Source of the DNA: Flavobacterium aestivum
Lineage (GTDB): Bacteria; Bacteroidota; Bacteroidia; Flavobacteriales; Flavobacteriaceae
Reading direction: 5' to 3'
NCBI RefSeq assembly: GCF_026870175.2
Contig: NZ_CP113977.2
Span: 1,240,001 to 1,304,000 of the forward strand
DNA length: 64,000 bases
Below the pieces are notes generated by a model. It was not told where the DNA came from and did no database searches. It saw only the letters and a program-made list of their open reading frames with translations. The position numbers were made by a program, and so were the translations under genes. Shown piece after piece: positions 16,527 through 31,501 of this stretch (position 1 is its first letter; each line of letters starts with the position of its first letter).

Positions 16527-16578
16527 TAGCTTCGAAATTTGACAGTAAATATAAGGAAAAAAATATAATAAAAATAAA

Positions 16579-16609
16579 AAAATACCTCTCATTTTTTGAG
16601 AGGTATTTT
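16579..16609 (-). terminator. Terminator of the beta-helix lipoprotein gene
   Basis: A 12-bp perfect stem (16579-16590 with 16598-16609) and a 7-nt loop, with a T-rich run on the minus strand. It begins 22 bp beyond the stop codon at 16631. Confidence 0.85.
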
Positions 16610-16630: not shown

Positions 16631-18061
16631 TTATTTTAGATTTTTAAGCAAATCTACACCGTCAACTGTACACCAAGCACCAGTAGTTAAATCTGCTCCT
16701 GTAGCGGTAGTGCTTGTTGTCCAGTTTGATGCTGGAACAAAACTTGCTGCAGTCACTGTAAAAGTATTAACTCCTGAAATAAAGGTAATAGGTGAGTTAG
16801 TGATTTTTACATTGTTTAATTTGATTTTTCCTCCTGCAACTTGGTGATCATATGTAACTTTGTCTAATATTTGAATCACACCGCCATTAAATGCTGTAGG
16901 AGTAGTTTGGCTACCATAACCATCAATTACGATGTTACTGTAATCTCCATTTCCTTCTTTTTTGAATTGAATTGCATCCAATTGAATTTCACTCTGTGCT
17001 TCTGTAGTTGTACCTGCAGCTCTTTTTAGAGTGATGTTAGTAACTTTTGGCCAGAAATTATTGTCAACACTTTTAGATTCTACTTCTAGTCCGTAGTTTG
17101 CAACACCTACTTGGTAAGCAAACCAGTTTGTGTTCTCTTGACCTCTCCATCCATCTTGCCAGTCAAAAGCGTCATCAGAATTACCATAAGAGATTGAGTT
17201 TTTCAAACTTACTGTTCCTCCATAAAATTCAAAACCATCATCATTACCTTTGTAGGATACTAAATGATCTAACACAGTTCCAGAACCAACAGAGTAGAAA
17301 GAGAATCCATTATTTTCTTTGCTGTTAGTTGTGATTACTTGTCCAGCATATTCAACTCTTACATATGTTAATGAACCTCCATTGTGTGCTGCGTTTGAAC
17401 CACCATATGATAATCCTAAACCATCCTCTGAGATTGCTGTTTGTGGAGCAGGAGCACTAGCTGAATTTACAATTGGAGCATCTCCATACATAATAATACC
17501 AGCCCAAGAACCTCCTACTTTAGATTTTTCAGTAAAAACTATAGGAGCACTAGCAGTACCATTAGCAATTAATTTTCCTCCATTTAATATTATAAGACCA
17601 TTTTGTCCAGTAGTTTTGTCACAAGTAATTGTAGAACCAGCTGCAATAGTAAGAGTTACTCCACTGTTAACTTTAACCATTCCTTTTAATGTATAATTAC
17701 CATAAGGATACGTTTTGTTTTCTGTAAAGGTTCCAGTTATTTCTCCTGTTGCTGCAGGAACTGCAGTTACAGTTACTGTTTTTGTTACTGGTGCAGCTGC
17801 TCCAGGAACTGTATATGTTATTACAGATGAACCTATAGTTACCCCTGTAATTACCCCAGTTTTTGCATCAATTGTTGCTACAGCAGGTGCAGCACTTGTA
17901 TAAGTTCCTCCTGTAGTTGTACTAGAAAATGTAGTAGTTGATCCTACAATGACACTTTCTGTACCAGTTAATGGTGCTACTGTGATTGGATCATCACTGT
18001 TACTACATGATGTAATAAATAAGCCTAAAGACATTGCTAAAGCTAAAATTTTTGTTCTCAT
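16631..18061 (-). CDS. Surface lipoprotein with Ig-like and beta-helix domains (Pho-linked)
   Basis: A 476-residue lipoprotein. The signal peptide ends in FITSC (Cys19), and the residues after it (SNSDDP) resemble the acidic export signal that sends lipoproteins to the cell surface in Flavobacteria. Residues about 28-103 look like a bacterial Ig-like (BIG2) domain (ATIDAKTGVITGVTIGSSVI). Residues about 125-476 form a repetitive strand pattern (GGSWAGIIMYG, GNDDGFEFYGG, SYGNSDDAFDWQDGW) expected of a right-handed parallel beta-helix. The promoter carries three half-sites at 11-bp spacing (18123-18149), so it should be induced by phosphate limitation. It may bind or degrade a phosphorus-containing polymer; no catalytic residues could be assigned. 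Confidence 0.85.
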   Translation of the reverse strand: MRTKILALAMSLGLFITSCSNSDDPITVAPLTGTESVIVGSTTTFSSTTTGGTYTSAAPAVATIDAKTGVITGVTIGSSVITYTVPGAAAPVTKTVTVTAVPAATGEITGTFTENKTYPYGNYTLKGMVKVNSGVTLTIAAGSTITCDKTTGQNGLIILNGGKLIANGTASAPIVFTEKSKVGGSWAGIIMYGDAPIVNSASAPAPQTAISEDGLGLSYGGSNAAHNGGSLTYVRVEYAGQVITTNSKENNGFSFYSVGSGTVLDHLVSYKGNDDGFEFYGGTVSLKNSISYGNSDDAFDWQDGWRGQENTNWFAYQVGVANYGLEVESKSVDNNFWPKVTNITLKRAAGTTTEAQSEIQLDAIQFKKEGNGDYSNIVIDGYGSQTTPTAFNGGVIQILDKVTYDHQVAGGKIKLNNVKITNSPITFISGVNTFTVTAASFVPASNWTTSTTATGADLTTGAWCTVDGVDLLKNLK

Positions 18062-18093
18062 AGTTTTTGTGTTATTTTCATAATTTGATATGC

Positions 18094-18149
18094 CAAAAGT
18101 ACTTTGTGAATTCGGAGTAAATGTTATCTTATAATTACAAAAAAGTTAT
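18094..18149 (-). promoter_or_regulatory. Candidate Pho boxes and -7 element (beta-helix lipoprotein)
   Basis: Read on the minus strand: ATAAC (18149-18145), GTAAT (18138-18134) and ATAAC (18127-18123), each exactly 11 bp apart, then a -7 element TACTTTTG (18101-18094) starting 22 bp after the last half-site. The layout is identical to that at 19817-19872. Confidence 0.7.
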
Positions 18150-18183
18150 TAAAATCAGTAGATAATGTAAAGCTAATATTAAG

Positions 18184-18235
18184 AGTGTTTAAAAAAATAA
18201 AGTCCCATACATGGGACTTTATTTTTTTAAACACT
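18184..18235 (-). terminator. Long hairpin terminator after the interrupted T9SS gene
   Basis: Two perfectly complementary 25-nt arms (18184-18208 and 18211-18235) around a 2-nt loop, containing A7 and T7 runs. It lies 19 bp beyond the stop codon at 18255 on the minus strand. Confidence 0.8.
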
Positions 18236-18254
18236 TAAAGGATTGTGTAGTTTT

Positions 18255-19784
18255 TTATTGATATAAAATTTTTCCAGATTTAACCTGTTTGTTGTCTGAT
18301 ACAATTTTATAGTAGTATATTCCTTTTGGATAATTTGATGGGATATCCCATTTCACGATTTGATTTGGAGTAGTAATTCCTTTAAAAACTGTTTGCGTTT
18401 TTTTCGATTTTTCAGAATAAATAATTATTTCCATTTCTTTATTGCTAGAAAAATTTGTTGTGAAATTTACAGAGCCTGATGAAGGATTTGGATAAACAGT
18501 AGATGTTAATGTGTTTTCTTGCTGCAAAGATCTAGATGTAATACCATTAATGCTTAGACCATTACTTATTGATGTTTTTCCGGATGATACTTTTCTGATT
18601 AATCTCGCTGAGTTATCTATTTGTGATATTCTATTAATTAGTTCTTGATAAGGAGTTAAATCTAGGTCTTTGGTAGTTTCGTCAAAATCTATAGCATCTC
18701 CTGTATAATATATTGACCAAGAATATTTATAAATCCCTATTCCTCCAGTAGGTATTCCTCCAGTTACTTGCTTATTATTAATCGATATAATGTTGTTTTG
18801 TATGTCAGAAATATGCGGTATCTCAAGTGCGTTACTCCTTGAATATTTGCCTGCTGACTGAATGTTTCTTATTATTTCAAAATTTTTAGATGAATTAAAA
18901 TATCTATCGAATTCAGGAGAATGGAGGATATAGGAGAATGATGTGTCAGGTAATTCACTCGAGTCTCCATCTTCATCAATTATATACCAAGTGTATATAT
19001 ATGAATTGGCGCCCCCTCCTCCTGTTGGTAAGCTACCTTCAATCAATACTCCATTTAGTTGTGTCAGATTAAAGGCAATTGTATTATTTAAAATAGGAGG
19101 AGCTTTAATTACTGTTATCGTAATTTCGTTACTATTACCTATGTTTGATCCTAATATGTTTTTTCTAAAATATGTTGTTGTAACAAGAGGAGTTCCTGGG
19201 TAATAATAAAAACTTGTTGCACCAGGGATAGGTGTGAAAACACCATCTATAGTTTTGTACCATTGAAATGTATAATTGCCTGCTCCCGAACTTATCAATG
19301 GAGGGGCGGTGTCGCCTTCTGTTATTGTTATGGTGGTAGTTGGCCAAGATCCTATATAGATTAATTCAGGAGGTGTTACTGGAGGAGATGTAGTTGATCC
19401 AGCTTTATAATTCACAGTAATTTTAATCATTTCAGATTCATTTTGAAAACAACTTCCGTTTGTAGAAAATTTGTAAGTAATTTAAGTGTCTGTTGTTACA
19501 GTTTTTTTGAACTTAAATCTTATCGTTGTATTTTGTCCTGGTGTCAATATGTTTCCATTTGTATAACTCTGTGATTGAATTCCATCATTGTTGCCACATG
19601 ACAAGGTAGCGTTAAGAAATATAGGATTACTACTGCTACCATAGCAGTTAACTAAAACATCGACCGTTCCTTCTACTCCTGAATTAAGGTTTATTGTATT
19701 AGAAAGGGGGCTATAACTTAGTGTATTTTGCGAAAAAGCCATTTCTGTAAAAAAAAGCAAAAAAATTAATTTTATATTTTTCAT
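18255..19784 (-). pseudogene. T9SS-secreted protein gene interrupted by one in-frame stop
   Basis: The 5' part (19482-19784) encodes a signal peptide ending FSQ and about 80 residues of a beta-rich domain, and stops at TAA (19482-19484). The same frame continues directly with ITYKFSTNGSCFQNESEM and on through 391 further residues (ATG at 19428-19430) to a T9SS type A sorting domain (VYPNPSSGSVNF, YPKGIYYYKIV). The two parts are in phase with no indel, so one base change breaks a protein of about 509 residues. The middle has repeated Ig/PKD-like modules (YTFQWYKTIDG, NSYIYTWYIID, GIYKYSWSIYY). The promoter has Pho-type half-sites. A sequencing error, a recent null mutation or readthrough cannot be told apart here. 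Confidence 0.85.
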
Positions 19785-19816
19785 AATTTATATGTTATTT
19801 TTTGATTTTGATATAC

Positions 19817-19872
19817 TAAAAGTACTCTGGGAGTTTAGATTATAGGTTACTTAATGATTACAAAAAAGTTAC
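19817..19872 (-). promoter_or_regulatory. Candidate Pho boxes and -7 element (T9SS gene)
   Basis: On the minus strand: GTAAC (19872-19868), GTAAT (19861-19857) and GTAAC (19850-19846), spaced exactly 11 bp, then TACTTTTA (19824-19817) beginning 22 bp after the last half-site. The whole upstream region is clearly similar to that at 18094-18149, suggesting a duplicated promoter. Confidence 0.7.
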
Positions 19873-19921
19873 TAAAATCAACATATAATGTAGAGCAAAG
19901 ATTATTTGATTTTTATTTATT

Positions 19922-19948
19922 AAAAAAGCCCTGTGTTTACAGGGCTTT
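19922..19948 (-). terminator. Terminator of the TonB-dependent receptor gene
   Basis: A 10-bp stem (19925-19934 with 19939-19948) and a 4-nt loop, with a T run on the minus strand (A run 19922-19927). It is 26 bp beyond the receptor stop codon. Confidence 0.85.
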
Positions 19949-19973
19949 AGCGAATGATTAATTGTCTGTTCTT

Positions 19974-22778
19974 CTAAAAAGTATAAGATATGTTCATAGA
20001 AAAACCTATGCCTTTTTTATATTCTTTAATTGTTAAATCGCTTTCAGTAATTGGAATTCTGTTGTTTTCACCTAATTCTATTTTGTAGCTTGGGTTTAAT
20101 AGGTTATCTGCAGAAAATTTAACATCAAATTTATCTGAAATTTTATTTTGCCAAATAAAATCAAGTTTACCAAACGGCATTTCATAATAATTATCTAATC
20201 CATTTGTTCCCACTGCATAGATTCGTTTGCTATAGATATTGTATACCAAAGTCATTGAGCTTTTCCATTTTTTGCTAAATTCAGAATCATATTTAATATC
20301 AGCGTTTAATATCCAAGGTGATGCTCCTTGCAGTTTTCTTGATGGATTATCATCTTTTGCAATAGTTTCTGGACTGTTAATACCATTTTTAGAAGTTTCA
20401 ATAGTTACTTTTGTATCCATTAATGATGCATTAGCACCCAAAGAGAAATTAGATAAAGAATTTGAAATTCTTTCAAATTGGAATAAGAATTCTAATTCGG
20501 CACCATAAAGTAGAGCTTGTTTAGAATTGCCGTATGTTATAATTTGTCCACCACTTCCAGCTGAATTTGTAAATAATCTTTCAATAGGATTATCTATTAT
20601 TTTATTAAAAATTGTAGCAGAAATTAATTCCTTATTTGTTGGGAAAAACTCGTATTTTAAATCAAAGTTGTAATTGTCACTGTTAATTAATGAAGGATTA
20701 CCTTGTTCTATAGTACCGTCAGGATTTACAAATTCTAGAGGATAAGACTCCATTATTACAGGCCTTGTAATTGTTTTTGAGGCTGCAAATCGTAAGTTTG
20801 ATTTTTCATTTAAAATATATCTTGTATTGAAAGAAGGTAAAAAATCTGTTTTGTCATCTTTTTTTGTTATAAAAGGATCTGTAAAACTTCCTGATGTTTT
20901 ATATTTTGTATCTCTATTAGTCTGTTCTACTCTTGCGCCTGCATTTAATTCTATTTTTTCGCCAAATTTGAAGGCTAGATCTAAGTATCCAGCATTAATG
21001 AACTCTTCTAACATTGCTTTGTATGTTGAGTTTGTTCCTTCGGTATAGGTGAAATTATTTTTTAAAATCTCACTTTTAAAATATTCATCAGGAGAGTTTG
21101 TAGGGAAAGTAGCAGAGTTTGAGTCTAGTCTTTGTGATACTAAAAATCTGAATTCAGATCCAATTTTATTCACATATCCGCTATATCCTGCAGTAAGCTT
21201 GTTTGATTTACTTAAGTCTTCATTGCCAAATTTCCAGCTGTATTCAAGTAATCCTGAGATATGTTGCTCGCCATCAAAATCAAGATATTGTCTAGCTATA
21301 CTATTACCGGAATAGGATATCGAAGTTGTGTTGTCATCAATCTTAACACCCTTGAAAGATTTTCTGTCTGGAAGTTCATACTGTGTTGTAGAGTATGAAA
21401 TACCAGATTTTATATTGTGTCTTTCATTCTCAGTCAGTTTGTAATTGCCAAATAACTGTGTGTTTAAAAAAATTGATTCTTGTAATTCATTCATTCTAAT
21501 AAAACCATTTGTTTGTGTTGTATTAGAATTCGTATAACCTAGCTGATCTTGTATTAAATTTTGATTCGATTTTAGATAGATGGTATTTGATGTAACTGAA
21601 AGCCTTTTTGTTTTATAAGTTAAAGCAGCCAATACAGAAGAGTTCGTTATAAATTTGTATTGCGTTGTAACTAAATCATTGTCATAGTTTCCTTGTGCTG
21701 TATTGAAAAATCTGTCGGCACCACTTCTAATTTGAAATTTATTTTCATAGTTAAATGAAATCAAGTATTGAAATATGTTTTGGTTTTTGCCTAGATTAAA
21801 TTTTTCTGAATGAAGGATTCCAAAATTTGTGTTTAAAGGAGAAATATCGCTTTTAACGTCAAAACCTGATCCAAAACCGTTTGCCGCTTGATCTGCGGTT
21901 AATGTTTGATTACTTGGGGTTTCTGTTAATACAGATGGTAAATCTCTTTCATTGCCAGAGAATCCAAAAAAATCAGATGTAGAGGTTGCATCTTGCGAAA
22001 TAAGGAATTTTTTTAGGTTATTGTTTATAGTATAACCAGCTCCAAAATTAATTTTAGTTTGACTTTTTCCAGAGTTTGCTGTTACTATATTAAAAGTTCC
22101 TCCAGCAAAATCTCCGTATAAATTAGTGTTGAAAGTTTTGTAGGTTTCTAAAACACTTACAATGTCGGTTGGAAAAATATCTAATGGGATAATTTTTTTA
22201 AATGGATTGTTTGAAGGTACCGCTAAGTCATTAAGCAGTAAATTATTATAACGATCTTCCAGTCCTCTCACAAATAAACCACGTGATTCTACTTTTGTAA
22301 TTCCTGTTATTTTGGTTAAGCCTTCCTCAACATCACTAACTCCTTTTCTTGACATCTCTTGCGCACCAATACTTTGTTTAATAACAACAGCATTTTTTTG
22401 TTCTAAAAGTAATGCAGTTTCTTTTTCTCTTGTTACGTTTGATTTGATAACTACATCTTTTAATTTGTAACTTCCAGATCCCAATGAGTTGTTTAGAGTA
22501 ACAGTTTCATTTGCAACAACAGTTACTGGAACTTCTATAGGGTCATAACCAAGAAAGCTAAATTGAATAGTATAACTTCCAGGAGCAATCGTAATCATAT
22601 ATTTTCCATCAATATCTGTATTAACACCTATTTTAGTACCTTTGATAAGCACATTTGCAAAAGGTAAGGCTTGATTGTTGGAATCTTTGTCTAATAAAAC
22701 ACCAGATATTGTTCCTTTGCCTTGTGAGAAACCAATAGCACAAATAAATAGTGTAAAGAATAGAAATTTTAATTTCAT
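19974..22778 (-). CDS. TonB-dependent outer-membrane receptor (Pho-linked)
   Basis: A 934-residue outer-membrane transporter driven by TonB. Domains in order: signal peptide ending GFSQ; a carboxypeptidase-regulatory-like domain (about 22-105: SGVLLDKDSNNQALPFANV, GVNTDIDGKYMITI); a plug domain (about 120-235: KGVSDVEEGLTKITGITK, VRGLEDRYNNLLLND); and a 22-strand-type barrel ending in FSMNISYTF with the terminal aromatic. It is not a SusC partner, since no SusD gene is adjacent. Upstream half-sites at 11-bp spacing, and divergence from phoB, point to control by phosphate. The substrate is unknown, possibly an organophosphate or metal-phosphate complex. Confidence 0.93.
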   Translation of the reverse strand: MKLKFLFFTLFICAIGFSQGKGTISGVLLDKDSNNQALPFANVLIKGTKIGVNTDIDGKYMITIAPGSYTIQFSFLGYDPIEVPVTVVANETVTLNNSLGSGSYKLKDVVIKSNVTREKETALLLEQKNAVVIKQSIGAQEMSRKGVSDVEEGLTKITGITKVESRGLFVRGLEDRYNNLLLNDLAVPSNNPFKKIIPLDIFPTDIVSVLETYKTFNTNLYGDFAGGTFNIVTANSGKSQTKINFGAGYTINNNLKKFLISQDATSTSDFFGFSGNERDLPSVLTETPSNQTLTADQAANGFGSGFDVKSDISPLNTNFGILHSEKFNLGKNQNIFQYLISFNYENKFQIRSGADRFFNTAQGNYDNDLVTTQYKFITNSSVLAALTYKTKRLSVTSNTIYLKSNQNLIQDQLGYTNSNTTQTNGFIRMNELQESIFLNTQLFGNYKLTENERHNIKSGISYSTTQYELPDRKSFKGVKIDDNTTSISYSGNSIARQYLDFDGEQHISGLLEYSWKFGNEDLSKSNKLTAGYSGYVNKIGSEFRFLVSQRLDSNSATFPTNSPDEYFKSEILKNNFTYTEGTNSTYKAMLEEFINAGYLDLAFKFGEKIELNAGARVEQTNRDTKYKTSGSFTDPFITKKDDKTDFLPSFNTRYILNEKSNLRFAASKTITRPVIMESYPLEFVNPDGTIEQGNPSLINSDNYNFDLKYEFFPTNKELISATIFNKIIDNPIERLFTNSAGSGGQIITYGNSKQALLYGAELEFLFQFERISNSLSNFSLGANASLMDTKVTIETSKNGINSPETIAKDDNPSRKLQGASPWILNADIKYDSEFSKKWKSSMTLVYNIYSKRIYAVGTNGLDNYYEMPFGKLDFIWQNKISDKFDVKFSADNLLNPSYKIELGENNRIPITESDLTIKEYKKGIGFSMNISYTF

Positions 22779-22801
22779 TTTGTTTAGTATTTAATTTTCT
22801 G

Positions 22802-22879
22802 CAAATAAATGGCGGGATTCTAGTCTTTGTGTTAACACCGGGTTATGAATGAATGTCATAATTATTATGAAATCGTTAA
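22802..22879 (-). promoter_or_regulatory. Candidate Pho boxes and -7 element (TonB receptor)
   Basis: Minus-strand half-sites TTAAC (22879-22875), ATAAT (22868-22864), ATAAC (22846-22842) and TTAAC (22835-22831) fall on one 11-bp register; the position at 22853-22857 is degenerate. A -7-like TTTATTTG (22809-22802) starts 22 bp after the last half-site, the same distance as in the two neighbouring promoters. A second pair (22883-22887, 22894-22898) is out of register. Confidence 0.6.
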
Positions 22880-22935
22880 CAGATTAAATTAAAGTTAAGT
22901 CCGCTTTTTTGTTATTGATACTTGCAGTTTATTAC

Positions 22936-22943
22936 TACTTTTA
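22936..22943 (+). promoter_or_regulatory. -7-like element upstream of phoB
   Basis: TACTTTTA resembles TAnnTTTG (last base differs), 72 bp before the chosen phoB start. No Pho-box register aligns with it, so autoregulation is not evident. Confidence 0.35.
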
Positions 22944-23014
22944 CATTGCAATAAAAAGTCATTGTACATCAAATAAGATGAAGTGCGATGGAAAAACTTA
23001 ATTTTTGCTATTTT

Positions 23015-23698
23015 ATGAAGAAAAGAAACACCAAGATTCTTCTGGTTGATGATGAACCAGATATTTTAGAAATTGTAGGCTATAATTTAGCGCATGAAGG
23101 GTATCAGATTGTAACAGCTACTAATGGTAAAGAAGCTATTGAAAAAGCAAAAAAAGAATTACCGGATCTTATCATAATGGATGTGATGATGCCAGAGATG
23201 GATGGAATGGAAGCTTGCGAGAATATTAGAAAAATTCCAGAGCTAAATAATGTAATTATTACTTTTTTGACTGCCAGAAGTGAGGACTATTCACAAGTTG
23301 CAGGTTTTGATGCCGGTGCGGATGATTATATTACCAAACCTATTAAGCCGAAATTACTGGTAAGCAAAGTAAAAGCTTTGTTAAGAAGGTTGAAAGAACA
23401 AGAACAAAGTAGTGAAACCCTTAATGTGGGTGGAATAGAAATCAATCGTGAGGAATATAAAATCGTCAAGAACAGTATAGAGATTGCTCTGCCGAGAAAA
23501 GAATTTGAACTTTTTTATTTATTAGCTTCTAAGCCTGGAAAAGTGTTTAAAAGAGAAGAAATCCTAGATAAAGTCTGGGGAAATGACGTAGTTGTTGGAG
23601 GAAGAACTATTGATGTTCATATCCGAAAACTTCGTGAAAAAATTGGAGATGATCTTTTTAAAACCATAAAAGGGGTAGGTTATAAATTTGAAGTTTAA
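23015..23698 (+). CDS. phoB: PhoB-type response regulator
   Basis: OmpR/PhoB-class response regulator of 227 residues. The receiver domain has the acidic pocket VDDE (12-14), the phosphorylated Asp56 in IIMDVMMPEMDG, a conserved Thr in FLTARS, and Lys in DYITKP. The C-terminal winged helix (from about residue 130) ends with GGRTIDVHIRKLREKIG and IKGVGYKF. The start is taken at the ATG at 23015, which gives the standard family N-terminus; an in-frame ATG at 22988 would add nine residues. It is followed by the histidine kinase and the whole phosphate uptake set, so the phosphate role is well supported by context. Confidence 0.93.
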   Translation: MKKRNTKILLVDDEPDILEIVGYNLAHEGYQIVTATNGKEAIEKAKKELPDLIIMDVMMPEMDGMEACENIRKIPELNNVIITFLTARSEDYSQVAGFDAGADDYITKPIKPKLLVSKVKALLRRLKEQEQSSETLNVGGIEINREEYKIVKNSIEIALPRKEFELFYLLASKPGKVFKREEILDKVWGNDVVVGGRTIDVHIRKLREKIGDDLFKTIKGVGYKFEV

Positions 23699-23768
23699 AT
23701 AAATGGTAACTTTAAAGATTTTTTAAATATCTTTTTAGTAACCATAATATTTGCATTCCCATTATATA

Positions 23769-24866
23769 ATGAAAATTAATTTCAAGAAAAGTTACAAGTT
23801 TGCTATAAAATCGGCTTTGTTTATCAGTTTATTTGTGTCCGGTTTTAGCATGATTCTTTCAGCATTACTGTTCAAATCTACTTTTGGTAGTGTTCTATTG
23901 TTTGGATTTATCAGTGTGTTCTTTGTTTATTTGTTTTCGTTTTTTGTTTTACAGTATAGGGTAGAACGCTTTATATACAGAAGAGTTAAGAAAATCTATG
24001 ATGATGTTTCGCTCTTAGAGTCAAGTACTTTTATAAACAAACCCATAACAACCGATATGGAAACTTTGACTAGGGAAGTAAAGAAATTTGCTACCGATAA
24101 AAAGTTAGAAATAGAAATGTTGCAGGTTCGTGAGGAGTATAGAAGAGAGTTTTTAGGGAATGTATCCCATGAGCTTAAAACCCCTTTGTTTACAGTACAA
24201 GGTTATTTGTCTACTCTTATTGATGGTGCTATGGACGATAAATCCATTAGAAAGAAATACTTGAAACGTGCCGAAAAAGGAGTAGAACGATTGATTTACA
24301 TTGTCGAAGATTTGGATATGATAACCAAATTAGAATCAGGGGATTTGAACCTAGAGTTTACAAAATTTGATATCGTAAAACTGATTCAGAATGTATTTGA
24401 TTTATTAGAGATGAAAGCCGATAAAAAGAACATCACATTGGCATTCGAAAATGATAACATTCAGCCCATTTTTGTAAATGGAGATAAAGATAAAATTCAA
24501 CAAGTAGTTGAAAATTTGATTGTAAATTCTATAAAATACGGAAAAGAAGGTGGTTTGACCGAAGTTTCTATAGTGAATTTGACCAATAAAAAAGTATTGG
24601 TTCGGGTTACGGATAATGGAGAAGGAATAGAAGTCCAAAATATACCACGTCTTTTTGAACGATTTTATAGAGTTGATAAAAGCGGTTCTCGCACCGAAGG
24701 AGGTTCAGGATTAGGACTTGCAATAGTGAAACATATTATTGAAGCCCATAAAGAAAAAATTTATGTTGAAAGTGAATTTGGCATAGGTTCGGAGTTTTCT
24801 TTTACCCTTGAAAAGACATTTATTACGGATCAATTAGGGCTCAAGAAAAATAAAAATAAGTCATAA
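23769..24866 (+). CDS. phoR: PhoR-type sensor histidine kinase
   Basis: Inner-membrane sensor kinase of 365 residues, partner of the preceding response regulator. Two membrane segments are at about 13-36 and 40-62, with almost no periplasmic loop, as in PhoR-type kinases that sense through PstB/PhoU rather than an external ligand. The DHp box is FLGNVSHELKTPL (phospho-His134). The ATPase domain has N (VENLIVNSIKYG), G1 (VTDNGEGI), F (LFERFYRVD) and G2 (GGSGLGLAIVKHI) boxes. No PAS domain is visible. The start is the ATG at 23769; an upstream in-frame TTG at 23751 is unlikely. Confidence 0.93.
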   Translation: MKINFKKSYKFAIKSALFISLFVSGFSMILSALLFKSTFGSVLLFGFISVFFVYLFSFFVLQYRVERFIYRRVKKIYDDVSLLESSTFINKPITTDMETLTREVKKFATDKKLEIEMLQVREEYRREFLGNVSHELKTPLFTVQGYLSTLIDGAMDDKSIRKKYLKRAEKGVERLIYIVEDLDMITKLESGDLNLEFTKFDIVKLIQNVFDLLEMKADKKNITLAFENDNIQPIFVNGDKDKIQQVVENLIVNSIKYGKEGGLTEVSIVNLTNKKVLVRVTDNGEGIEVQNIPRLFERFYRVDKSGSRTEGGSGLGLAIVKHIIEAHKEKIYVESEFGIGSEFSFTLEKTFITDQLGLKKNKNKS

Positions 24867-24963
24867 ATTTATATTCTAAAATACAATTTAAAATTCTGGA
24901 AGTTAATGTTTTGGCGGGTTTGGAGCATAAAATAGCTTTTATTTAATTTAAAGAAAAAACCTG

Positions 24964-25030
24964 TTAACATTAAATTATCACCTATATAACATTGAGTTAA
25001 CCTTAACTTAACATTGCAGTGTCACCTTTG
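24964..25030 (+). promoter_or_regulatory. Five-site Pho-box array and -7 element (porin)
   Basis: TTAAC (24964), TTATC (24975), ATAAC (24986), TTAAC (24997) and TTAAC (25008) recur at exactly 11 bp. A -7-like CACCTTTG starts at 25023, 11 bp after the last site ends. This is the most regular array in the window, matching the 11-bp periodicity of PhoB binding known from proteobacteria. Confidence 0.8.
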
Positions 25031-25060
25031 CAGCAAAATTAACATTCATATTAAAAGAAA

Positions 25061-26404
25061 ATGAAAAAAGTTATAGTTGCAATGGCGGTGTTGTGCTTTG
25101 GCGTTGCAAGTGCTCAAGAAGTTACTAATGATTCAATTAAGCCAATTAGCATTGATTCATTACAACAAGCAATAAATATGCATCAATTAAAATTTGATGC
25201 ATTGAATGAACAACTATCTCCTTTACAAGAAGAAGTTGATAGAATGTCTAAGTTGAAAATTTCTGGTTACATGCAAGTGCAGTACGAGATGTATAATTAT
25301 CAAGATGTGCCAACTGCTACAGGTCCGCTTCAATTGAAACCAGGAACTGCAGAAACGAATGTACCGTTAACTACGAATCCTACCGATGTTACCAATTCAT
25401 TTGTGATAAGAAGAGCAAGGGTAAAATTTACTTATAAGCCTATTGAAGGGGTAGCATTCGTTTTGCAACCTAATTTTTCTTTTAGCGCGGTGACTTTGAA
25501 AGATGCTTATGTTCAGTTGAATGACCCTTGGTTAAACACTTTTCAATTATGGGTAGGGCAATTCAATAGACCTGATTATGAGGTAGAATTTTCTTCAAGA
25601 GACAGAATAATATTGGAAAGAAGTAGAATGACAACAATTTTATATCCTCAAGAAAGAGATTTGGGAGCAAAGTTTGTTGTTGATTTTGTAAATAAATATG
25701 AAATTCCTTTGAAAATTGATTTTGCGGCATTTAATGGAAACTTCGGAGAAGGACCAATTGCTAATCAAGTTTCGGATGTAGATAGTGATAAAGATATAGT
25801 GGTAAGAGCAACTTATTCATTGAAGTTTCCAAATGCAGGTTTAGGAATCGACTTTGGAGGGAATGGTTATTTTGGAAAAAATACTGTTTTTGCAGCTGGT
25901 ACTTATAGTGATATTAATAACAATCCATTTACAGCAGCAGTTGGAGATAAGTTAGATAAACATTGGATTGGAGCTGAGCTTCAGCTATACTATGATGTTT
26001 TAGGTGGTTTTGCTTTAAAATCTCAATTTAACAAAGGGGTTATCTCTGGTACTTCTGGTGCTGCAATCATTAATAATAATCCTTCTTTTAATTTTAGTGG
26101 AGAAAGAGAATTTATAGGATACTATGTAACATTAGAGAAAAACTTTGGATCTAAATATCAAGCAGCGGTTCGTTATGACTCATGGGATCCAAACGCAAGA
26201 TTATCAGGTGATGCAGTAACTGTAGCTCCGGATTTGAGAGTACATACTTGGTCATTTGCTTTTGACTATTTCTTTAATAATTACACAAAAATCGCTTTAG
26301 GATATTCAATGCCAATAAACGAGACGAGTTCAACAGTTGGTGGAATTTATAATAGTGATGTAAAAAATAATACAACAACCTTGAGATTTCAAGTTAGTTT
26401 CTAA
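25061..26404 (+). CDS. Phosphate-selective porin (OprO/OprP family)
   Basis: A 447-residue outer-membrane porin expected to pass phosphate or polyphosphate. It has a signal peptide ending VASAQ, then a coiled-coil-like N-terminal segment (SLQQAINMHQLKFDALNEQL), as in trimeric porins of this family, then a 16-strand-type barrel with conserved VIRRARVKFTY, WVGQFNRP and ERSRM blocks, ending in LRFQVSF with the terminal Phe. Lys/Arg residues are frequent, but the phosphate ladder cannot be placed from sequence alone. It is preceded by the strongest Pho-box array and lies between phoR and pstS. Confidence 0.92.
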   Translation: MKKVIVAMAVLCFGVASAQEVTNDSIKPISIDSLQQAINMHQLKFDALNEQLSPLQEEVDRMSKLKISGYMQVQYEMYNYQDVPTATGPLQLKPGTAETNVPLTTNPTDVTNSFVIRRARVKFTYKPIEGVAFVLQPNFSFSAVTLKDAYVQLNDPWLNTFQLWVGQFNRPDYEVEFSSRDRIILERSRMTTILYPQERDLGAKFVVDFVNKYEIPLKIDFAAFNGNFGEGPIANQVSDVDSDKDIVVRATYSLKFPNAGLGIDFGGNGYFGKNTVFAAGTYSDINNNPFTAAVGDKLDKHWIGAELQLYYDVLGGFALKSQFNKGVISGTSGAAIINNNPSFNFSGEREFIGYYVTLEKNFGSKYQAAVRYDSWDPNARLSGDAVTVAPDLRVHTWSFAFDYFFNNYTKIALGYSMPINETSSTVGGIYNSDVKNNTTTLRFQVSF

Positions 26405-26445
26405 AATGATTTTATTTTAAAATCCAGAAGTATTTTATTTACATA

Positions 26446-26480
26446 TAAGAGACTATTATCACTCGTGAAATAGTCTCTTA
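26446..26480 (+). terminator. Hairpin terminator after the porin
   Basis: A 12-bp perfect stem (26446-26457 with 26469-26480) and an 11-nt loop; the following T run is weak. It lies 41 bp after the porin stop. Confidence 0.65.
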
Positions 26481-26586
26481 TTGTTTCTGTAAATATTCTT
26501 ATGTTACTGGTATTCAGCGATGTTAATAGCTTTCTGGTTATGCTACTTTTTATTTATTGTAAAATTATTGTAAAAATGGCTAAATG

Positions 26587-26642
26587 GTAAAGATTGAATA
26601 ATACTTGCTTAACATAGACTTAACGTAGCGGTTTTACTTTTG
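26587..26642 (+). promoter_or_regulatory. Pho-box array and -7 element (pstS)
   Basis: GTAAA (26587), ATAAT (26598), TTAAC (26609) and TTAAC (26620) lie on an exact 11-bp register. The -7 element TACTTTTG (26635-26642) starts 11 bp after the last half-site, the same spacing as in the porin promoter. Confidence 0.75.
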
Positions 26643-26666
26643 TCAAAAATTAAAAGACACTTAAAA

Positions 26667-27500
26667 ATGAATACAACAAAATTTAAAATAGCAACTCTTT
26701 TAGTAGTGGTAATGACTATTGGATTTTCATTCACTACAATAAATAAAGTTACCGTAAAAGGGTCGGATACTATGGTTATTTTGTCTCAAAAATGGGCCGA
26801 AGTATACATGAAAAAAAATCCAGGAACATCAATACAAGTTACAGGTGGAGGATCTGGAGTAGGTTTAGCAGCATTAATTAATGGATCTACAGATATTGCA
26901 AATTCAAGTCGTCCTATCAAACCTTCTGAAGTAGAAAAATTAAAAGCAAGATACGGTTCTTTAGGAGTTGAAATTCCTTGTGCTAAAGATGGTTTGTCAG
27001 TATATTTAAATAAAGCTAATCCAGTAACTGCACTTACATTGAAACAAATTGGACAAATTTTTGCTGGGAAAATAACAAACTGGAAAGAAGTTGGTGGTGC
27101 TGATGCTCCTATTAAATTATATGGTAGAGAAAGTAGTTCTGGAACATTTGGTTTCTTTAAAGACAATGTGGTTAAAACAGATTTTGCTCCAACTTGTCAA
27201 ACATTGCCTGGAACAGCTGCAATTGTAAATGCTGTTAAAAAAGATAAAAATTCAATAGGTTACGGTGGAGCAGCTTATGCAGAAGGTGTAAAAGATTGTG
27301 GTGTAAAGAAAGACGATAAAAGTCCAGCAATTTTACCAACTGCAGCTACTATCAAAAACAAAACATATCCTATCACAAGATACTTGTACATGTATTTAAA
27401 ATCAAGACCAACAGGTGAGACTAAAGAGTTTATCGATTGGATTTTGAGTCCTGCAGGTCAAGGTTTAATAGAAGAAGTAGGGTACTATCCTTTAAAATAA
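26667..27500 (+). CDS. pstS: Phosphate ABC transporter substrate-binding protein
   Basis: Periplasmic phosphate-binding protein, 277 residues from the ATG at 26667 (an in-frame TTG at 26640 lies inside the promoter). After an N-terminal hydrophobic export segment come the PstS signatures: KGSDTMVILSQKWAEVYM, the phosphate-contacting GGGSGVGLAALINGSTDIA, GRESSSGTFGFF, and the C-terminal GYYPL. There is no lipobox, so it is probably soluble or tethered by an uncleaved segment. It has its own terminator 10 bp downstream, separating it from pstC, which allows a higher dose of PstS than of the permeases. Confidence 0.94.
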   Translation: MNTTKFKIATLLVVVMTIGFSFTTINKVTVKGSDTMVILSQKWAEVYMKKNPGTSIQVTGGGSGVGLAALINGSTDIANSSRPIKPSEVEKLKARYGSLGVEIPCAKDGLSVYLNKANPVTALTLKQIGQIFAGKITNWKEVGGADAPIKLYGRESSSGTFGFFKDNVVKTDFAPTCQTLPGTAAIVNAVKKDKNSIGYGGAAYAEGVKDCGVKKDDKSPAILPTAATIKNKTYPITRYLYMYLKSRPTGETKEFIDWILSPAGQGLIEEVGYYPLK

Positions 27501-27510
27501 TAAGTAAAGT

Positions 27511-27540
27511 ATCCCTCATTTTTTAATGAGGGATGTTTTT
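27511..27540 (+). terminator. Terminator after pstS
   Basis: A 10-bp perfect stem (27511-27520 with 27525-27534), a 4-nt loop and a T run. It may be partly read through, as pst genes usually form one regulon. Confidence 0.85.
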
Positions 27541-27744
27541 ATGTTTTTTTCTAAATGAAATCGCCAAAATTGCAAAGCACAGATTTAAAAAAATGGCGAT
27601 ACTATATCCCTTTAAAAGAGATATTAGCTTCATATGAATTCTTAGATAAATAGGATGAAATGGGCATGAATGTAAAATAGGTTGAAAGTGCTAATAACCT
27701 CATGCAAATTACATGTGACTAATAAAAAACAATAAAATCAACAC

Positions 27745-28992
27745 ATGAACCCCCAATTACCCATAAAACAAGTTTTTACTAAAGAAAGTTTAAAAAAACA
27801 ATTCAGGCTTTCCGAATTTCTTGCCGAAAAAATTATATCGTCGATTGCCTTTTTATCAATAGCTATTATTTTTTTAATTTTCATTTTTGTTTTTAAAGAG
27901 TCTTTACCCATATTTAATTCAGGAAATGGAGCTAAGGAAAAAACAGAAATTAAAGCTGAAGCTACAGGTAAGCCGGAAGCTTATGGTACCGAAGTTGCTG
28001 AGGATTTAAAACCAGAATCTTATGGTGCTGAAACAAAGGAGGAATTAAAACCGGAGTCTTACGGTACGGAACCGAAAGAGGATCTGAAACCAGAGACGTA
28101 TGGTTCTGAACCTGTTTCTCAAGAGGATTTAAAGCCAGAAAGTTACGGAGATACTCCAAAGGAAGACTTAACGGTAGCATCGCCAGAAGATGAGACGATG
28201 AATGCTGTTTCAGAAAACAAAGAAGGTAGTGATAAAACGTGGGATACTTTTCTAACAACAGAATGGGTACCCGTTTCCGAGAATCCAAGATTTGGAATGT
28301 TAGCGTTGTTAATAGGTACTTTAAAAGTGACTATCATTGCAATGCTTATTGCAGGACCATTAGCGGTTCTTGCAGCATTATATACTTCGTGTTTTGCCTC
28401 AAAGAGGGTGAAAGAAATCATTAAACCAATTATTGAAATGTTAGCTGCTTTCCCATCTGTAGTTATTGGTTTTTTTGCTCTGATGGTATTGGCCACATTT
28501 TTTCAAAATGTATTTGGTTACGATTCTAGATTGAATGCTTTTATTGGAGGTGTAGCTATGGCCTTGGCAGCTATTCCTATCATTTATACGATTTCTGAAG
28601 ATGCTTTGGCAGCTATTCCTAAAACCTATACCGAAGCAAGTTTAGCATTGGGAGCCAGTAAATGGCAAACTGCATTTTTTGTGGTTTTGCCTGCAGCGAC
28701 ACCTGGTATTTTTGCAGCTTTGTTGTTAGGAGTAGGAAGGGTTTTTGGAGAAACGATGATTGCGCTAATGGCAACTGGAAATGCAGCCTTAGTGTCTGCC
28801 AATCCTTTTGAAAGTGTGAGAACATTTGCAGCAACCATTGGTTCTGAAATGGCAGAAACCGTTTTTGGAGATACTCATTATAGTGTTTTGTTTTTTATTG
28901 GGTCTTTACTTTTCATATTCTCATTTGCCTTAAATGCTGTTGCAGAATTTTATGTAAAAGGCAAATTGTTGAAAAAATTCCAAGGTAAATAA
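27745..28992 (+). CDS. pstC: Phosphate ABC transporter permease PstC with a repeat-bearing loop
   Basis: Inner-membrane permease of the Pst phosphate importer. It is 415 residues, about 100 longer than usual. The first membrane segment is at about residues 31-50. Then comes an insertion at about 60-165 that contains five units of the type EDLKPESYG, followed by the normal permease core: GTLKVTIIAMLIAGPLAV, VVIGFFALM, and the cytosolic EAA-like loop EASLALGASKWQT with GRVFGETM after it. The insertion falls in the periplasmic loop between TM1 and TM2. The 244 bp before it hold the pstS terminator and AT-rich sequence. It is followed 2 bp later by pstA. Confidence 0.92.
   Translation: MNPQLPIKQVFTKESLKKQFRLSEFLAEKIISSIAFLSIAIIFLIFIFVFKESLPIFNSGNGAKEKTEIKAEATGKPEAYGTEVAEDLKPESYGAETKEELKPESYGTEPKEDLKPETYGSEPVSQEDLKPESYGDTPKEDLTVASPEDETMNAVSENKEGSDKTWDTFLTTEWVPVSENPRFGMLALLIGTLKVTIIAMLIAGPLAVLAALYTSCFASKRVKEIIKPIIEMLAAFPSVVIGFFALMVLATFFQNVFGYDSRLNAFIGGVAMALAAIPIIYTISEDALAAIPKTYTEASLALGASKWQTAFFVVLPAATPGIFAALLLGVGRVFGETMIALMATGNAALVSANPFESVRTFAATIGSEMAETVFGDTHYSVLFFIGSLLFIFSFALNAVAEFYVKGKLLKKFQGK
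27973..28173 (+). repeat. In-frame tandem repeats inside pstC
   Basis: Five units of 13-15 codons with consensus (E)EDLKPESYGxEPK encode an acidic, proline/tyrosine-rich stretch. Units differ by many synonymous changes, so the repeat is old and maintained rather than a recent slippage product. Confidence 0.85.
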
Positions 28993-28994
28993 TT

Positions 28995-29939
28995 ATGGAT
29001 AAAATTATAAATGAATCAGAAGATCACTTTTTTTCAAGTAAAAAGAGTATTTCGGATATAAAAGGAAAGGTTTTTATAGGAATCACACAAATAGCAGTGT
29101 TCTTAATCATTGCAACACTTTTTATCATTCTTGGAATTATAGTCTATCAAGGGCGTTCTAAGTTTTCTTGGGAGTTTATCTCTCAATTCCCTACTAATGG
29201 TATGACAGAAGGAGGAATATTTCCTGCTTTAATAGGGACTTTTATACTAGTAATCGTAATGTCTATAGCGGCGGTTCCTTTTGGGACTATTACGGCACTC
29301 TACTTAACGGAGTATGCTCGTGAAGATTCTAAGTTTGCTGCAGCAGTTCGATTCTCAGTACGTACACTTGCAGTGGTTCCTTCAATAATATTTGGTCTTT
29401 TTGGTCTTGGGTTTTTTATCCAATTTTTGGGTGCTGGAGCCGATACCGCTTTTAATGGAGGTCAATTGCGTTGGGGACAACCTAATATCCTTTGGGCAAG
29501 TTTAACGATGTCTTTATTGACATTGCCGGTTATTATTGTATCTGTTGAAGAAGCATTGAAAACAATCCCACGCGAATTAAGAGAAGCGAGTTTAGCACTT
29601 GGTGCAACCAAATGGCAAACTATTAGAAAAGTGGTGCTTCCGGGTTCTGTATCTGGAATTATGACAGGTACAATTCTCGCAGTAAGTAGAGGTGCAGGAG
29701 AAGTAGCTCCAATATTATTTACGGGGGCGGCATATTATTTGGCTACATTGCCAGGTTCACTAAGTGATCAATTCATGAACTTGGGATATCATATTTATAT
29801 TATGTCTACCCAATCTTCGGATGTGGAGAAAACAATGCCAATACAGTTTGCTACAACTTTAGTGTTATTAATTTTGACATTATCTCTAAACGTAGTTGCT
29901 GTAATTATTAGATCAAGAATAAGAAGAAAAGCAAAATAA
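28995..29939 (+). CDS. pstA: Phosphate ABC transporter permease PstA
   Basis: Second inner-membrane permease of the Pst importer, 314 residues, of normal length. Six membrane segments are visible, beginning with one at about 28-52. The ABC-contact loop reads EASLALGATKWQTIRKVVLP, parallel to that in PstC, and is followed by SRGAGEVAPILFTGAA, typical of PstA. It starts 2 bp after pstC and is 49 bp before pstB in the same operon. No repeat insertion like that of PstC is present. Confidence 0.94.
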   Translation: MDKIINESEDHFFSSKKSISDIKGKVFIGITQIAVFLIIATLFIILGIIVYQGRSKFSWEFISQFPTNGMTEGGIFPALIGTFILVIVMSIAAVPFGTITALYLTEYAREDSKFAAAVRFSVRTLAVVPSIIFGLFGLGFFIQFLGAGADTAFNGGQLRWGQPNILWASLTMSLLTLPVIIVSVEEALKTIPRELREASLALGATKWQTIRKVVLPGSVSGIMTGTILAVSRGAGEVAPILFTGAAYYLATLPGSLSDQFMNLGYHIYIMSTQSSDVEKTMPIQFATTLVLLILTLSLNVVAVIIRSRIRRKAK

Positions 29940-29988
29940 TATTTAGACTGACTAAATAGATTATTATTTTAGACATAACAAGTAAACA

Positions 29989-30747
29989 ATGAAAGATATA
30001 AAAATAAAAGTAAATGATTTATCATTATACTACGGTGAAAAAAAGGCTTTGAATGATATTACAATGGATATCCCTGCCAATAAAGTTACCGCTTTAATTG
30101 GACCTTCGGGTTGTGGAAAATCTACTTTTTTGAGATGTATCAATAGAATGAATGACCTTATACCAAGTGTTTCTATTACTGGTAAAATGCTGGTTGAAGG
30201 AGTTGATATTTATGACAAGAATGTTGATGTTGTTAATATTAGAAAGAAAATCGGGATGGTTTTTCAAAAATCAAACCCATTCCCAAAATCTATTTATGAG
30301 AACGTTGCTTATGGTCCTCGTATTAATGGAATAAAAGATAAAGCACAGTTAGACGAAATTGTAGAAACCTCTTTGCGTCAAGCCGCCATTTGGGATGAGT
30401 TAAAAGATCGTTTGGATGATTCAGCTTTAGGGCTTTCCGGAGGACAACAACAACGTTTGTGTATAGGAAGAACATTAGCTGTAAGCCCGGATATTATTTT
30501 GATGGATGAACCAGCAAGTGCATTAGATCCAATTTCGACTTCTAAAATCGAAGAATTAGTGCATCAGTTAAAAGAGCAATATACTATCATTATCGTGACG
30601 CACAATATGCAACAAGCTGCCAGAACGAGTGATCATACTGCCTTTTTTTATATGGGTGAATTGATTGAAATGGGCAAAACAAATTCTATATTTACAAAAC
30701 CGGTACAAAAGCAAACCGAGGATTATATAACAGGTAGATTTGGATAA
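29989..30747 (+). CDS. pstB: Phosphate ABC transporter ATPase PstB
   Basis: ATP-hydrolysing subunit of the Pst importer on the cytoplasmic side, 252 residues. Walker A is GPSGCGKST, the Q-loop lies in [18 protein letters not shown] (PstB-typical NPFP), the signature is LSGGQQQR, Walker B is [12 protein letters not shown], and the switch is VTHNMQQA. In the same operon as pstA and phoU. In the Pho system it also relays the transport state to PhoR, with PhoU. Confidence 0.97.
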
Positions 30748-30820
30748 AAGGTTTATAGAAAGATTTAAAGATTAAAAAATTTCATAATTCCTGAATCGTT
30801 AAGTTTTTAAATAAAAAAAG

Positions 30821-31501
30821 ATGAGTACACATTTCGAAATAGAATTAGATAAGTTAAAAAATATTATTGAAAAAATCGGGAAATTGGCTGAAGGCCAAGT
30901 GAGCGAATCAGTAAAAAAACTTTTGCAGGAGCCGGAAGTGGCTGAAGCGAAAAGCATCAAAAAAACAGAAAATAAAATTGACAAATTAGATATAAAAATC
31001 GATGAAATTTGTCAACGCATTTTTGCTTTGCAACAACCCGTTGCTTCTGATTTACGTTTTATAATGTCTGCAATGCAAATTAGCAACGAGATTGAACGAA
31101 TTGGAGATTTATCAATAAGTATCGTAAAAAGATCAAAGAATATTAAAGAGAAACACGATCTGATTGTTAAGTTCAATATAGCCGATGTTGCCAGACAAGT
31201 AGAGTTAATTACGGTAAAGACCAATAATTGTTTTATGACTCGTAATGAAAATGTTATTGGAGAGATTTTTGTACTGAACAACGAGATCAGAAAGAATTGC
31301 GAAGACGCAATACACGATATTATAAATGAAATGAAAGTAAATTCTAAGGCTGTAGTTTCAGGAACTAATTTGGTGATTATTTTAAAGCATTTAGAGCGAA
31401 TTTCTGAGCATTGTACCAACATTGCAGAATACGTTTACTTTATGATAAATGCTAAAATTATCAAACACGATAAATTTGATGATTTAGAATCGGAAGATTA
31501 G
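30821..31501 (+). CDS. phoU: Phosphate signalling protein PhoU
   Basis: Negative regulator that links the Pst transporter to PhoR; cytosolic and peripheral to the membrane. The 226 residues form two similar three-helix bundles, each with the E(R)xxD metal-binding pattern (NEIERIGDLSISIVKRS in the first half, HLERISEHCTNIAEYV in the second). It is the last gene of the pst operon, 73 bp after pstB, and is followed by a strong terminator. Confidence 0.94.
   Translation: MSTHFEIELDKLKNIIEKIGKLAEGQVSESVKKLLQEPEVAEAKSIKKTENKIDKLDIKIDEICQRIFALQQPVASDLRFIMSAMQISNEIERIGDLSISIVKRSKNIKEKHDLIVKFNIADVARQVELITVKTNNCFMTRNENVIGEIFVLNNEIRKNCEDAIHDIINEMKVNSKAVVSGTNLVIILKHLERISEHCTNIAEYVYFMINAKIIKHDKFDDLESED

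Follow-up and report, generated by a model that had tools for sequence, protein, structure and literature searches.

In the SusCD/PusCD, BtuBG and XusAB systems a surface lipoprotein is paired with its own TonB receptor; all of them are receptors capped by the lipoprotein. We analysed a locus of Flavobacterium aestivum that appears to follow the same plan. It lies in a stretch of 64,000 nucleotides (assembly GCF_026870175.2, contig NZ_CP113977.2, positions 1,240,001 to 1,304,000; hereafter the window, with positions counted from its first letter) and is part of a single-contig genome of 4.58 Mb. A TonB-dependent receptor (TBDR) and a beta-helix lipoprotein stand here beside genes for phosphate regulation and uptake. 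Compared with SusCD/PusCD, the lipoprotein is a beta-helix and not a SusD, and the receptor scores far below the SusC/RagA cut-off (TIGR04056, 33.4 bits against 368.25).

Two closer systems have been published. The first is PUSIV of F. johnsoniae DSM2064, Fjoh_0541-0549 (Lidbury et al., ISME J, PMC8115612). According to the parts of that report cited here, depletion of inorganic phosphate (Pi) induces the TonB-dependent transporter Fjoh_0545, the lipoprotein Fjoh_0546 (FII) and the glycosyltransferase Fjoh_0541 as transcript and as protein. Transcript fold changes are 8.02 for Fjoh_0545 and 9.91 for Fjoh_0546; OprP, at -1.3, is not induced. Fjoh_0541 is listed there under lipid remodelling, and plant-associated Bacteroidetes are said to lack PstSABC. 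The second is ElpS (CC0170) of Caulobacter crescentus, a surface lipoprotein of phosphate starvation encoded beside the TonB receptor CC0171 (Le Blastier et al. 2010, PMC2996285). Its authors noted that the two genes co-occur in genomes. The initial annotation of the window had called the substrate and mechanism undescribed. Since PUSIV, with its low-Pi induction, and ElpS/CC0171 are both published, the system itself is already known; its substrate and mechanism are not settled in the cited parts of these reports.

The locus is a genuine Pho locus and belongs to this known, incompletely understood kind. We consider it probable that it is a PhoB-controlled phosphorus-scavenging locus like PUSIV and ElpS/CC0171, with the TBDR and the lipoprotein as its core, supplying a Pi importer. 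The features are as follows.

16631..18061, minus strand: surface lipoprotein gene (ElpS/FII-like), 476 aa; lipobox C19, Big_2-type immunoglobulin (Ig) domain at about 28-100 and predicted right-handed beta-helix at 101-457
18123..18148, minus strand: putative Pho box 5' of the lipoprotein gene, TAAC/TAAT/TAAC in 11-bp register
18255..19784, minus strand: gene with a type IX secretion system (T9SS) tail, broken; 510-codon frame with TAA at codon 101
19846..19871, minus strand: putative Pho box 5' of the T9SS gene, inside a near-duplicate of the lipoprotein promoter
19974..22778, minus strand: TBDR gene, 934 aa; CarbopepD_reg_2, Plug and barrel
22831..22879, minus strand: putative Pho box 5' of the TBDR gene, 11-bp register, one of five half-sites poor
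22988..23698, plus strand: phoB response regulator gene, divergent from the TBDR gene; probable, by best NCBIfam name, domains and neighbours
23751..24866, plus strand: phoR sensor kinase gene; probable, by best NCBIfam name, domains and neighbours
24964..25012, plus strand: putative Pho box 5' of the porin gene, five half-sites in 11-bp register, one imperfect
25061..26404, plus strand: Porin_O_P (OprO/OprP-type) porin gene, by profile
26598..26624, plus strand: putative Pho box 5' of pstS
26640..27500, plus strand: pstS, by NCBIfam; listed from TTG, the likelier start being the ATG at 26668
27745..28992, plus strand: pstC, by NCBIfam
28995..29939, plus strand: pstA, by the general permease domain BPD_transp_1
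29989..30747, plus strand: pstB, by the general ATPase domain ABC_tran
30821..31501, plus strand: phoU, two PhoU domains (PF01895)
31577..32638, minus strand: glycosyltransferase gene (PF13528/PF04101), a conserved neighbour

Transcription on the minus strand runs from the TBDR gene through the T9SS-tailed gene to the lipoprotein gene. On the plus strand, divergent from the TBDR gene, follow phoB, phoR, the porin gene, pstS, pstC, pstA, pstB and phoU. By locus tags, PUSIV has the order glycosyltransferase, OprP, PhoR, PhoB, TBDT, FII lipoprotein, and the same order is found here. In contrast to PUSIV, pstSCAB-phoU lies between the porin and glycosyltransferase genes, the porin gene and pstS have Pho boxes, and a broken T9SS gene separates receptor and lipoprotein. 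From the gene order and from other Flavobacterium species we infer kinship to Fjoh_0545/0546. The glycosyltransferase is probably the counterpart of the low-Pi-induced Fjoh_0541. Like ElpS and CC0171, the lipoprotein and the receptor are adjacent, here with the broken T9SS gene between them; the Caulobacter pair adjoins type II secretion genes, and ElpS gets cleaved off (PMC2996285, cited parts). Kinship to ElpS rests on the 31-36% identity published for F. johnsoniae FI-FIII, as given in the cited text.

To describe the surroundings of the pair, we compared 114 loci. Of these, 34 surround the lipoprotein genes that matched best in relatives, and 80 are named loci, the best 80 of at least 593. 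Since they are best matches, counts over the 114 describe close kin and not a random sample. The named loci closest to the window are from Flavobacterium. A TBDR gene lies 5' of the lipoprotein gene in 109 of the 114 loci. It is on the same strand and within 2.5 kb in 32 of the 34 relatives' loci, and on the same strand in 77 of the 80 named loci, where the distance is at most 700 bp in 72 and otherwise at most 2.1 kb. The five exceptions are L061, L110 and L126, whose sequence begins at the end of a contig, and L060 and L152, which are genuine.

The neighbours of the pair vary. Over the 114 loci, phoB was found in 69, pst genes in 13, Pit/PHO4 in 15, Na/Pi cotransporter genes in 5 and a porin gene in 29. 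A Pi importer (Pst, Pit or Na/Pi) is present in 29 loci, and phoB or a Pi importer in 83. The initial annotation had Pst take up the released phosphate; as a fixed partner Pst does not hold. With the two genes together in 109 loci, pst in 13 and the T9SS gene in one, the pair forms the core, whereas Pst is an optional part and the T9SS gene a local one.

The initial annotation had stated that its reading would be refuted if the trio were common at a distance from pho genes and differently controlled. In 39 of the 80 named loci the pair is indeed away from phoB, pst and phoU genes; as to control, a box 5' of the TBDR gene is kept in 11 of 30 testable loci of this type (dinucleotide shuffles: mean 0.30, maximum 3). 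Eleven loci with no phoB nearby have a Pit/PHO4 gene downstream on the same strand, 0.3-6.6 kb from the lipoprotein gene. The Pit/PHO4 proteins are about 750-785 aa where read, and five of the 11 loci also have a Porin_O_P-like gene. A Na/Pi cotransporter gene accompanies Pit/PHO4 in L135, L137 and L138. In L096, from Gemmatimonadetes, a pst cluster comes next, no more than about 1.2 kb away.

Of the 39 unlinked loci, 37 were examined for nearest neighbours and 36 yielded proteins, 130 in all; the scan covered 121 of these (9 longer than 900 aa were left out). Matches were HD-domain 15, PHO4 8, proton-antiporter subunits 8 and Porin_O_P 3. The background density of PHO4 in relatives is estimated at about 0.3 genes per Mb. 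In a far-flank control of 98 proteins, PHO4 was not among the 25 families shown, all of which matched at least twice; a single match would not show. Alkaline phosphatase, phytase and GDPD did not match twice among the 121 neighbours. Families with a single match were mostly not displayed, so single phosphatases may still occur. A Ppx/GppA gene lies near L118. Judged by these neighbours, the link of the pair to Pi importers of unrelated families is a recurrent and clear pattern, which supports the proposed link to inorganic-phosphate import.

We examined the candidate Pho boxes in the window and in the other loci. Binding data from another member of the order agree with such boxes: a regulator of Riemerella anatipestifer induced by phosphate starvation has, by DNA affinity purification sequencing, the motif core TTTAACA, and it shifts, among others, a TonB-receptor promoter (PMC9603813, cited parts). 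We take it to be an orthologue of the PhoB encoded here. Half-sites were read upstream of the lipoprotein gene at -88, -77 and -66, and at the same three positions upstream of the T9SS gene. For the TBDR gene they are at -101, -90, -79, -68 and -57, the one at -79 being poor; for the porin gene at -97, -86, -75, -64 and -53, the one at -86 being imperfect; and for pstS at -70, -59 and -48.

A position weight matrix learnt from relatives was set aside. It ranked the porin box first and a site inside the lipoprotein coding region second. The boxes of pstS, the lipoprotein gene and the T9SS gene (11.1-11.6) were mixed with coding matches, and the TBDR box was outside the top 25. In view of these failings the spacing of half-sites was tested instead. 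We counted pairs of NTAAC exactly 11 bp apart upstream of genes, with dinucleotide shuffles and spacings of 10 and 12 as controls. Upstream of the TBDR gene, such pairs were found in 21 of 32 relatives' loci (shuffles: mean 0.43, maximum 2); spacing 10 gave 1 and spacing 12 gave 0. Upstream of the lipoprotein gene, 7 of 34 relatives' loci had a pair (shuffles: mean 0.51, maximum 4), spacings 10 and 12 gave 2 each, and spacing 22 gave 9. In the window and in F. chilense the lipoprotein box has TAAT as its middle half-site, which the strict 11-bp count misses. Other genes with pairs in relatives were pstC (4/8), pstS (2/8) and the porin gene (3/3; 7/22 with weaker porin matches included). No pair was found in relatives upstream of phoB (0/31), phoR (0/31) or the glycosyltransferase gene (0/14), and tyrS had one (1/9). 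Among the pho-linked named loci, a box lies 5' of the TBDR gene in 33 of 40 testable (shuffles: mean 0.57, maximum 5). The initial annotation had placed half-sites on an 11-bp register at the three envelope genes, the porin gene and pstS. They are found there, and in relatives such pairs exceed shuffles. We regard the half-sites as real and, from this comparison, as behaving like Pho boxes, which supports control by PhoB.

In the own genome, a triple half-site pattern has 7 matches in 4.58 Mb, 3 of them in the island (binomial P = 2e-7, to be read with the caveat that the boxes of the lipoprotein and T9SS genes nearly duplicate each other). There is no enrichment in the total, since reversing the pattern as a control gives 9 matches against 7; thus the places of the pattern are informative and its total is not. 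One of the four matches outside the island is 46 bp 5' of a GDPD gene, two precede secreted-looking genes and one is inside a coding gene. The pattern at C1:1492046, C1:3093798 and C1:3155818 (L072, L074 and L075) stands, respectively, before the GDPD gene, before a 319-aa gene with no Pfam match that is followed by an outer-membrane-like gene (by eye), and before a gene for a Big_7 Ig-domain protein. For the porin, a box was found in 5 of 8 loci with pst against 2 of 14 without it (Fisher P = 0.052); L065 and L083, with no start codon, were left out, and the loci with pst include L101, which has pstS alone. This is only suggestive of a porin box that goes mainly with pst; such a link would agree with the lack of OprP induction in F. 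johnsoniae.

The TBDR and the lipoprotein appear to change together at this place. The address is fixed: phoB flanks it on one side, and the other side usually has a LuxE-like gene and a short gene with a T9SS tail. The pair types found there are unlike. Identity of the lipoprotein to that of the window is 50% or more in 15 loci, where the TBDR is 46-67% identical; it stays below 50% in 41 loci, with a TBDR of 26-40%. By these limits there was no mixed locus. In 13 of the 41 loci with a divergent pair, PhoB is 87-94% identical to that of the window; L044 has a PhoB of 94% beside a lipoprotein of 32% and a TBDR of 38%. F. hibernum and F. pectinovorum have another pair type at this address. In the window, a short T9SS-tailed gene (16188-16592, minus strand) directly follows the lipoprotein gene, and a similar gene lies between the lipoprotein and LuxE-like genes in many Flavobacterium loci.

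Distances of TBDR and lipoprotein covary beyond those of phoB and phoR (partial r 0.95, 0/1000 permutations). This was calculated on 56 of the 114 loci plus the window, the other 58 being dropped; a stricter first version had 15 loci plus the window. Trees were built for 55 hand-chosen loci plus the window by a quick method, with Shimodaira-Hasegawa approximate likelihood ratio test (SH-aLRT) support only. The sets of 5, 18 and 22 rows that include the window are the same in the two trees, but in that of the TBDR the set of 18 is not starred as a branch. Two Pedobacter species fall within the Flavobacterium group in each tree. The trees disagree on where L033 stands, on L094, and on two sets, of 8 and of 11 rows, which the lipoprotein tree has and the TBDR tree lacks. 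Covariation, matching trees and the swap beside a little-changed phoB argue for a physical partnership and for exchange as a unit. These comparisons point to a matched pair whose members are exchanged together, and adjacency agrees with the earlier view that receptor and surface lipoprotein belong together. Searches of open-licence literature found no report of the pair exchange, of the Flavobacterium Pho box or of Pit beside the pair; in PMC8115612, the legend of Fig. 3 does name PitA as one of the components shown in its PUS clusters.

The lipoprotein is predicted to fold as a right-handed beta-helix over residues 101-457, with a mean predicted local distance difference test score of 91.4. 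Its lipobox is ITS|CSNSDD. C19 is kept in all 74 aligned lipoproteins, and 69 of the 74 have at least two acidic residues within the next six. The surface-export signal of F. johnsoniae is SDDFE (PMC5080379, cited part). The acid-rich tail resembles it, which counts for a surface-anchored lipoprotein; with its lipobox and tail it is, like ElpS, a lipoprotein of the outer-membrane surface by prediction. No family in the Pfam library scanned matched above its cut-off. The precomputed label of the lipoprotein, PF28492, is a family not in the Pfam library used. Among the 74 members, none matched the SusD families PF07980/PF14322, and none matched carbohydrate-enzyme Pfam families (GH28, pectate and alginate lyases) at E 0.01. 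Sequence searches of solved structures gave nothing useful for the lipoprotein or for its family profile, and no solved enzyme. Foldseek with the predicted model gave no match below E 1e-3; NosD, which is not known to be an enzyme, was among the best fold matches. Two more beta-helix relatives of the lipoprotein, L053 and L054 (C1:3931558 and C1:766865), are encoded in the own genome and have no lipobox cysteine. For the TBDR, the solved structures gave one partial sequence match, 9gbc, over residues 5-239.

The T9SS gene between receptor and lipoprotein is broken. Its pieces, 19482-19784 and 18255-19430, belong to a single reading frame (510 codons) that an in-frame TAA interrupts at codon 101; this stop may be genuine or a sequencing error. 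The initial annotation saw an envelope trio here. The TBDR and beta-helix lipoprotein of that trio are present; the T9SS gene is interrupted. Its C-terminal type A sorting domain scores 26.3 bits with TIGR04183 (cut-off 23) and 24.7 bits with Pfam, below the cut-off of 27. Relatives of the protein are mostly about 490-620 aa in one piece. Uninterrupted examples are F. chilense L079 (496 aa) and P0122 (507 aa). The gene promoter, box included, is a near-copy of the lipoprotein promoter. Searched with the C-terminal piece (more than 100 bits), the T9SS gene was found in 1 of the 114 loci; F. salmonis, with the closest pair among the loci compared, has no counterpart of it there. The T9SS gene is a local addition, broken in this genome, and not a core part.

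Under phosphate starvation, PhoB would bind the 11-bp-spaced TTAAC half-sites and turn on the pair, the porin and pst. For F. johnsoniae, induction of the pair by low Pi has been published (PMC8115612, cited parts). The lipoprotein would then capture a phosphorus ligand at the surface, perhaps orthophosphate with a metal at an invariant acidic cluster, and would hand it to its own receptor for TonB-energised import. Orthophosphate in the periplasm would enter the cell through the Pi importer of the genome, which, judging from the neighbours, would be Pst here and Pit or Na/Pi elsewhere. The ligand and transport step of the pair are a proposal only, phosphate or a ligand yielding phosphate being most likely. 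A wider reading is less likely than not, and we hold it tentatively. The pair may be a general outer-membrane importer of Bacteroidota for inorganic phosphate or a phosphate complex (metal-phosphate or chelate), feeding any inner-membrane importer (Pst, Pit or Na/Pi). Its many incompatible types would be swapped as cassettes at a fixed Pho-regulated address, partner and ligand specificity together.

Several points weigh against the scavenging locus that we favour. In 31 of the 114 loci, neither phoB nor a recognised Pi importer was found in the stretch read. HD-domain proteins (15/121) are commoner beside the pair than PHO4, and antiporter subunits are equally common, so gene-order conservation alone can give such counts. 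Many of the Pit-linked loci are from related marine Flavobacteriaceae, and the 15 loci are therefore not as many independent events. The acidic cluster (D274, D275 and E278) is invariant in the alignment, partly because the search pattern built this in, and it would repel free phosphate unless a cation bridges. The F. johnsoniae authors favour organic phosphorus as the target (PMC8115612), and the authors of a Caulobacter PhoB-regulon study assume that TonB receptors import alternative phosphate donors (PMC11208175). Expression of cc0171 in Caulobacter occurred both in rich and in poor media, and intracellular phosphate did not change, with data not shown there (PMC2996285; all three sources as far as the cited parts go). 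Uptake, binding and expression in F. aestivum are themselves predictions from the DNA.

Organic phosphorus would be the target if the lipoprotein were an enzyme like a polygalacturonase or polysaccharide lyase that frees organic phosphorus or cell-wall glycans, with the receptor importing the product, as the F. johnsoniae authors suggest. We consider this unlikely, given the negative carbohydrate-enzyme and solved-enzyme searches, the NosD match and the lack of alkaline phosphatase activity in ElpS preparations (PMC2996285, cited parts). Moreover, no phosphatase or carbohydrate-enzyme family is among the neighbour families matched at least twice, except HD-domain phosphohydrolases; those seen are RNase Y and, as read here, dGTPase. 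The Caulobacter work suggests another role: the lipoprotein would assist or activate a secreted phosphatase, and the receptor would be a sensor and not an importer. Overexpression of elpS raised extracellular phosphatase activity with ElpS itself inactive, and a sensor role was considered by the authors; however, deletion of cc0171 did not stop ElpS production and deletion of elpS did not lower phosphatase activity (PMC2996285, cited parts). Beside the pair, Pi importers recur and no nutritional phosphatase family does, and we regard this role as improbable.

It is most doubtful that the T9SS protein is a working secreted binder in a three-protein system, as first proposed. F. chilense does have an uninterrupted relative between TBDR and lipoprotein, with its own half-sites at -79, -68 and -57; for three relatives of the T9SS protein the longest contigs are equal in length (4664, 8795 and 12429) to those for three relatives of the lipoprotein; and T9SS-domain genes are induced in PUSIII of F. 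johnsoniae (PMC8115612, cited parts). However, beyond the stop codon and the single locus, the fold predicted for an uninterrupted relative, one Ig-like domain after another, is suggestive of an adhesin or spacer. Equally remote, in our view, is a pair that forms a low-phosphate surface structure for adhesion or envelope remodelling, takes up nothing and is exchanged as a phage or toxin receptor. Diversifying selection on such a receptor would lead one to expect matched-pair exchange at a fixed address; against it stand the TonB-receptor architecture and the recurrent link to Pi importers.

The initial annotation had recognised phoB, phoR, the porin gene, pstSCAB and phoU as one block, and profile matches and gene order agree with its coordinates. 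The porin matches PF07396 (Porin_O_P) with 28 bits (cut-off 20.9), PstS matches TIGR02136 with 246 (206.6) and PstC matches TIGR02138 with 236 (196). The best NCBIfam name of PhoB is TIGR02154, at 221 bits below the cut-off of 296, and the best names of PhoR are PnpS/PhoR, at 242 bits below the cut-offs of 400 and 334 (334 for TIGR02966). Both are thus probable identities, based on best match, domains and neighbours. By profile, PstSCAB-PhoU and the OprO/OprP porin are standard families. The only unusual feature noticed is in PstC (27745-28992, plus strand), where an acidic repeat, roughly twelve residues long (ESYG.E.KEDLKP), stands between the N-terminal part and the permease domain. Beyond the glycosyltransferase gene, a 172-aa low-complexity protein of KDAKKTTDK-like repeats is encoded at 32840-33358 (minus strand), and a 1143-aa protein with a signal-peptide-like start adjoins the island at 33423-36854 (minus strand).

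Compared with the known systems, this locus differs in its coexistence with Pst, in the Pho boxes on the porin gene and pstS and in the broken T9SS insertion. Of what this analysis adds, the most interesting points are that the pair is exchanged in matched form and that Pi importers of unrelated families recur beside it. The neighbours sharpen the question from some organic phosphorus to the delivery of Pi to Pst, Pit or Na/Pi importers. The exchanged pairs are natural variants for finding the ligand and the contact between receptor and lipoprotein, and the 11-bp TTAAC box is a means to read Pho regulons across Flavobacteriaceae genomes. If the pair does import phosphate or a phosphate-yielding ligand, Bacteroidota would have an energised outer-membrane step dedicated to phosphorus, a task that usually falls to porins.

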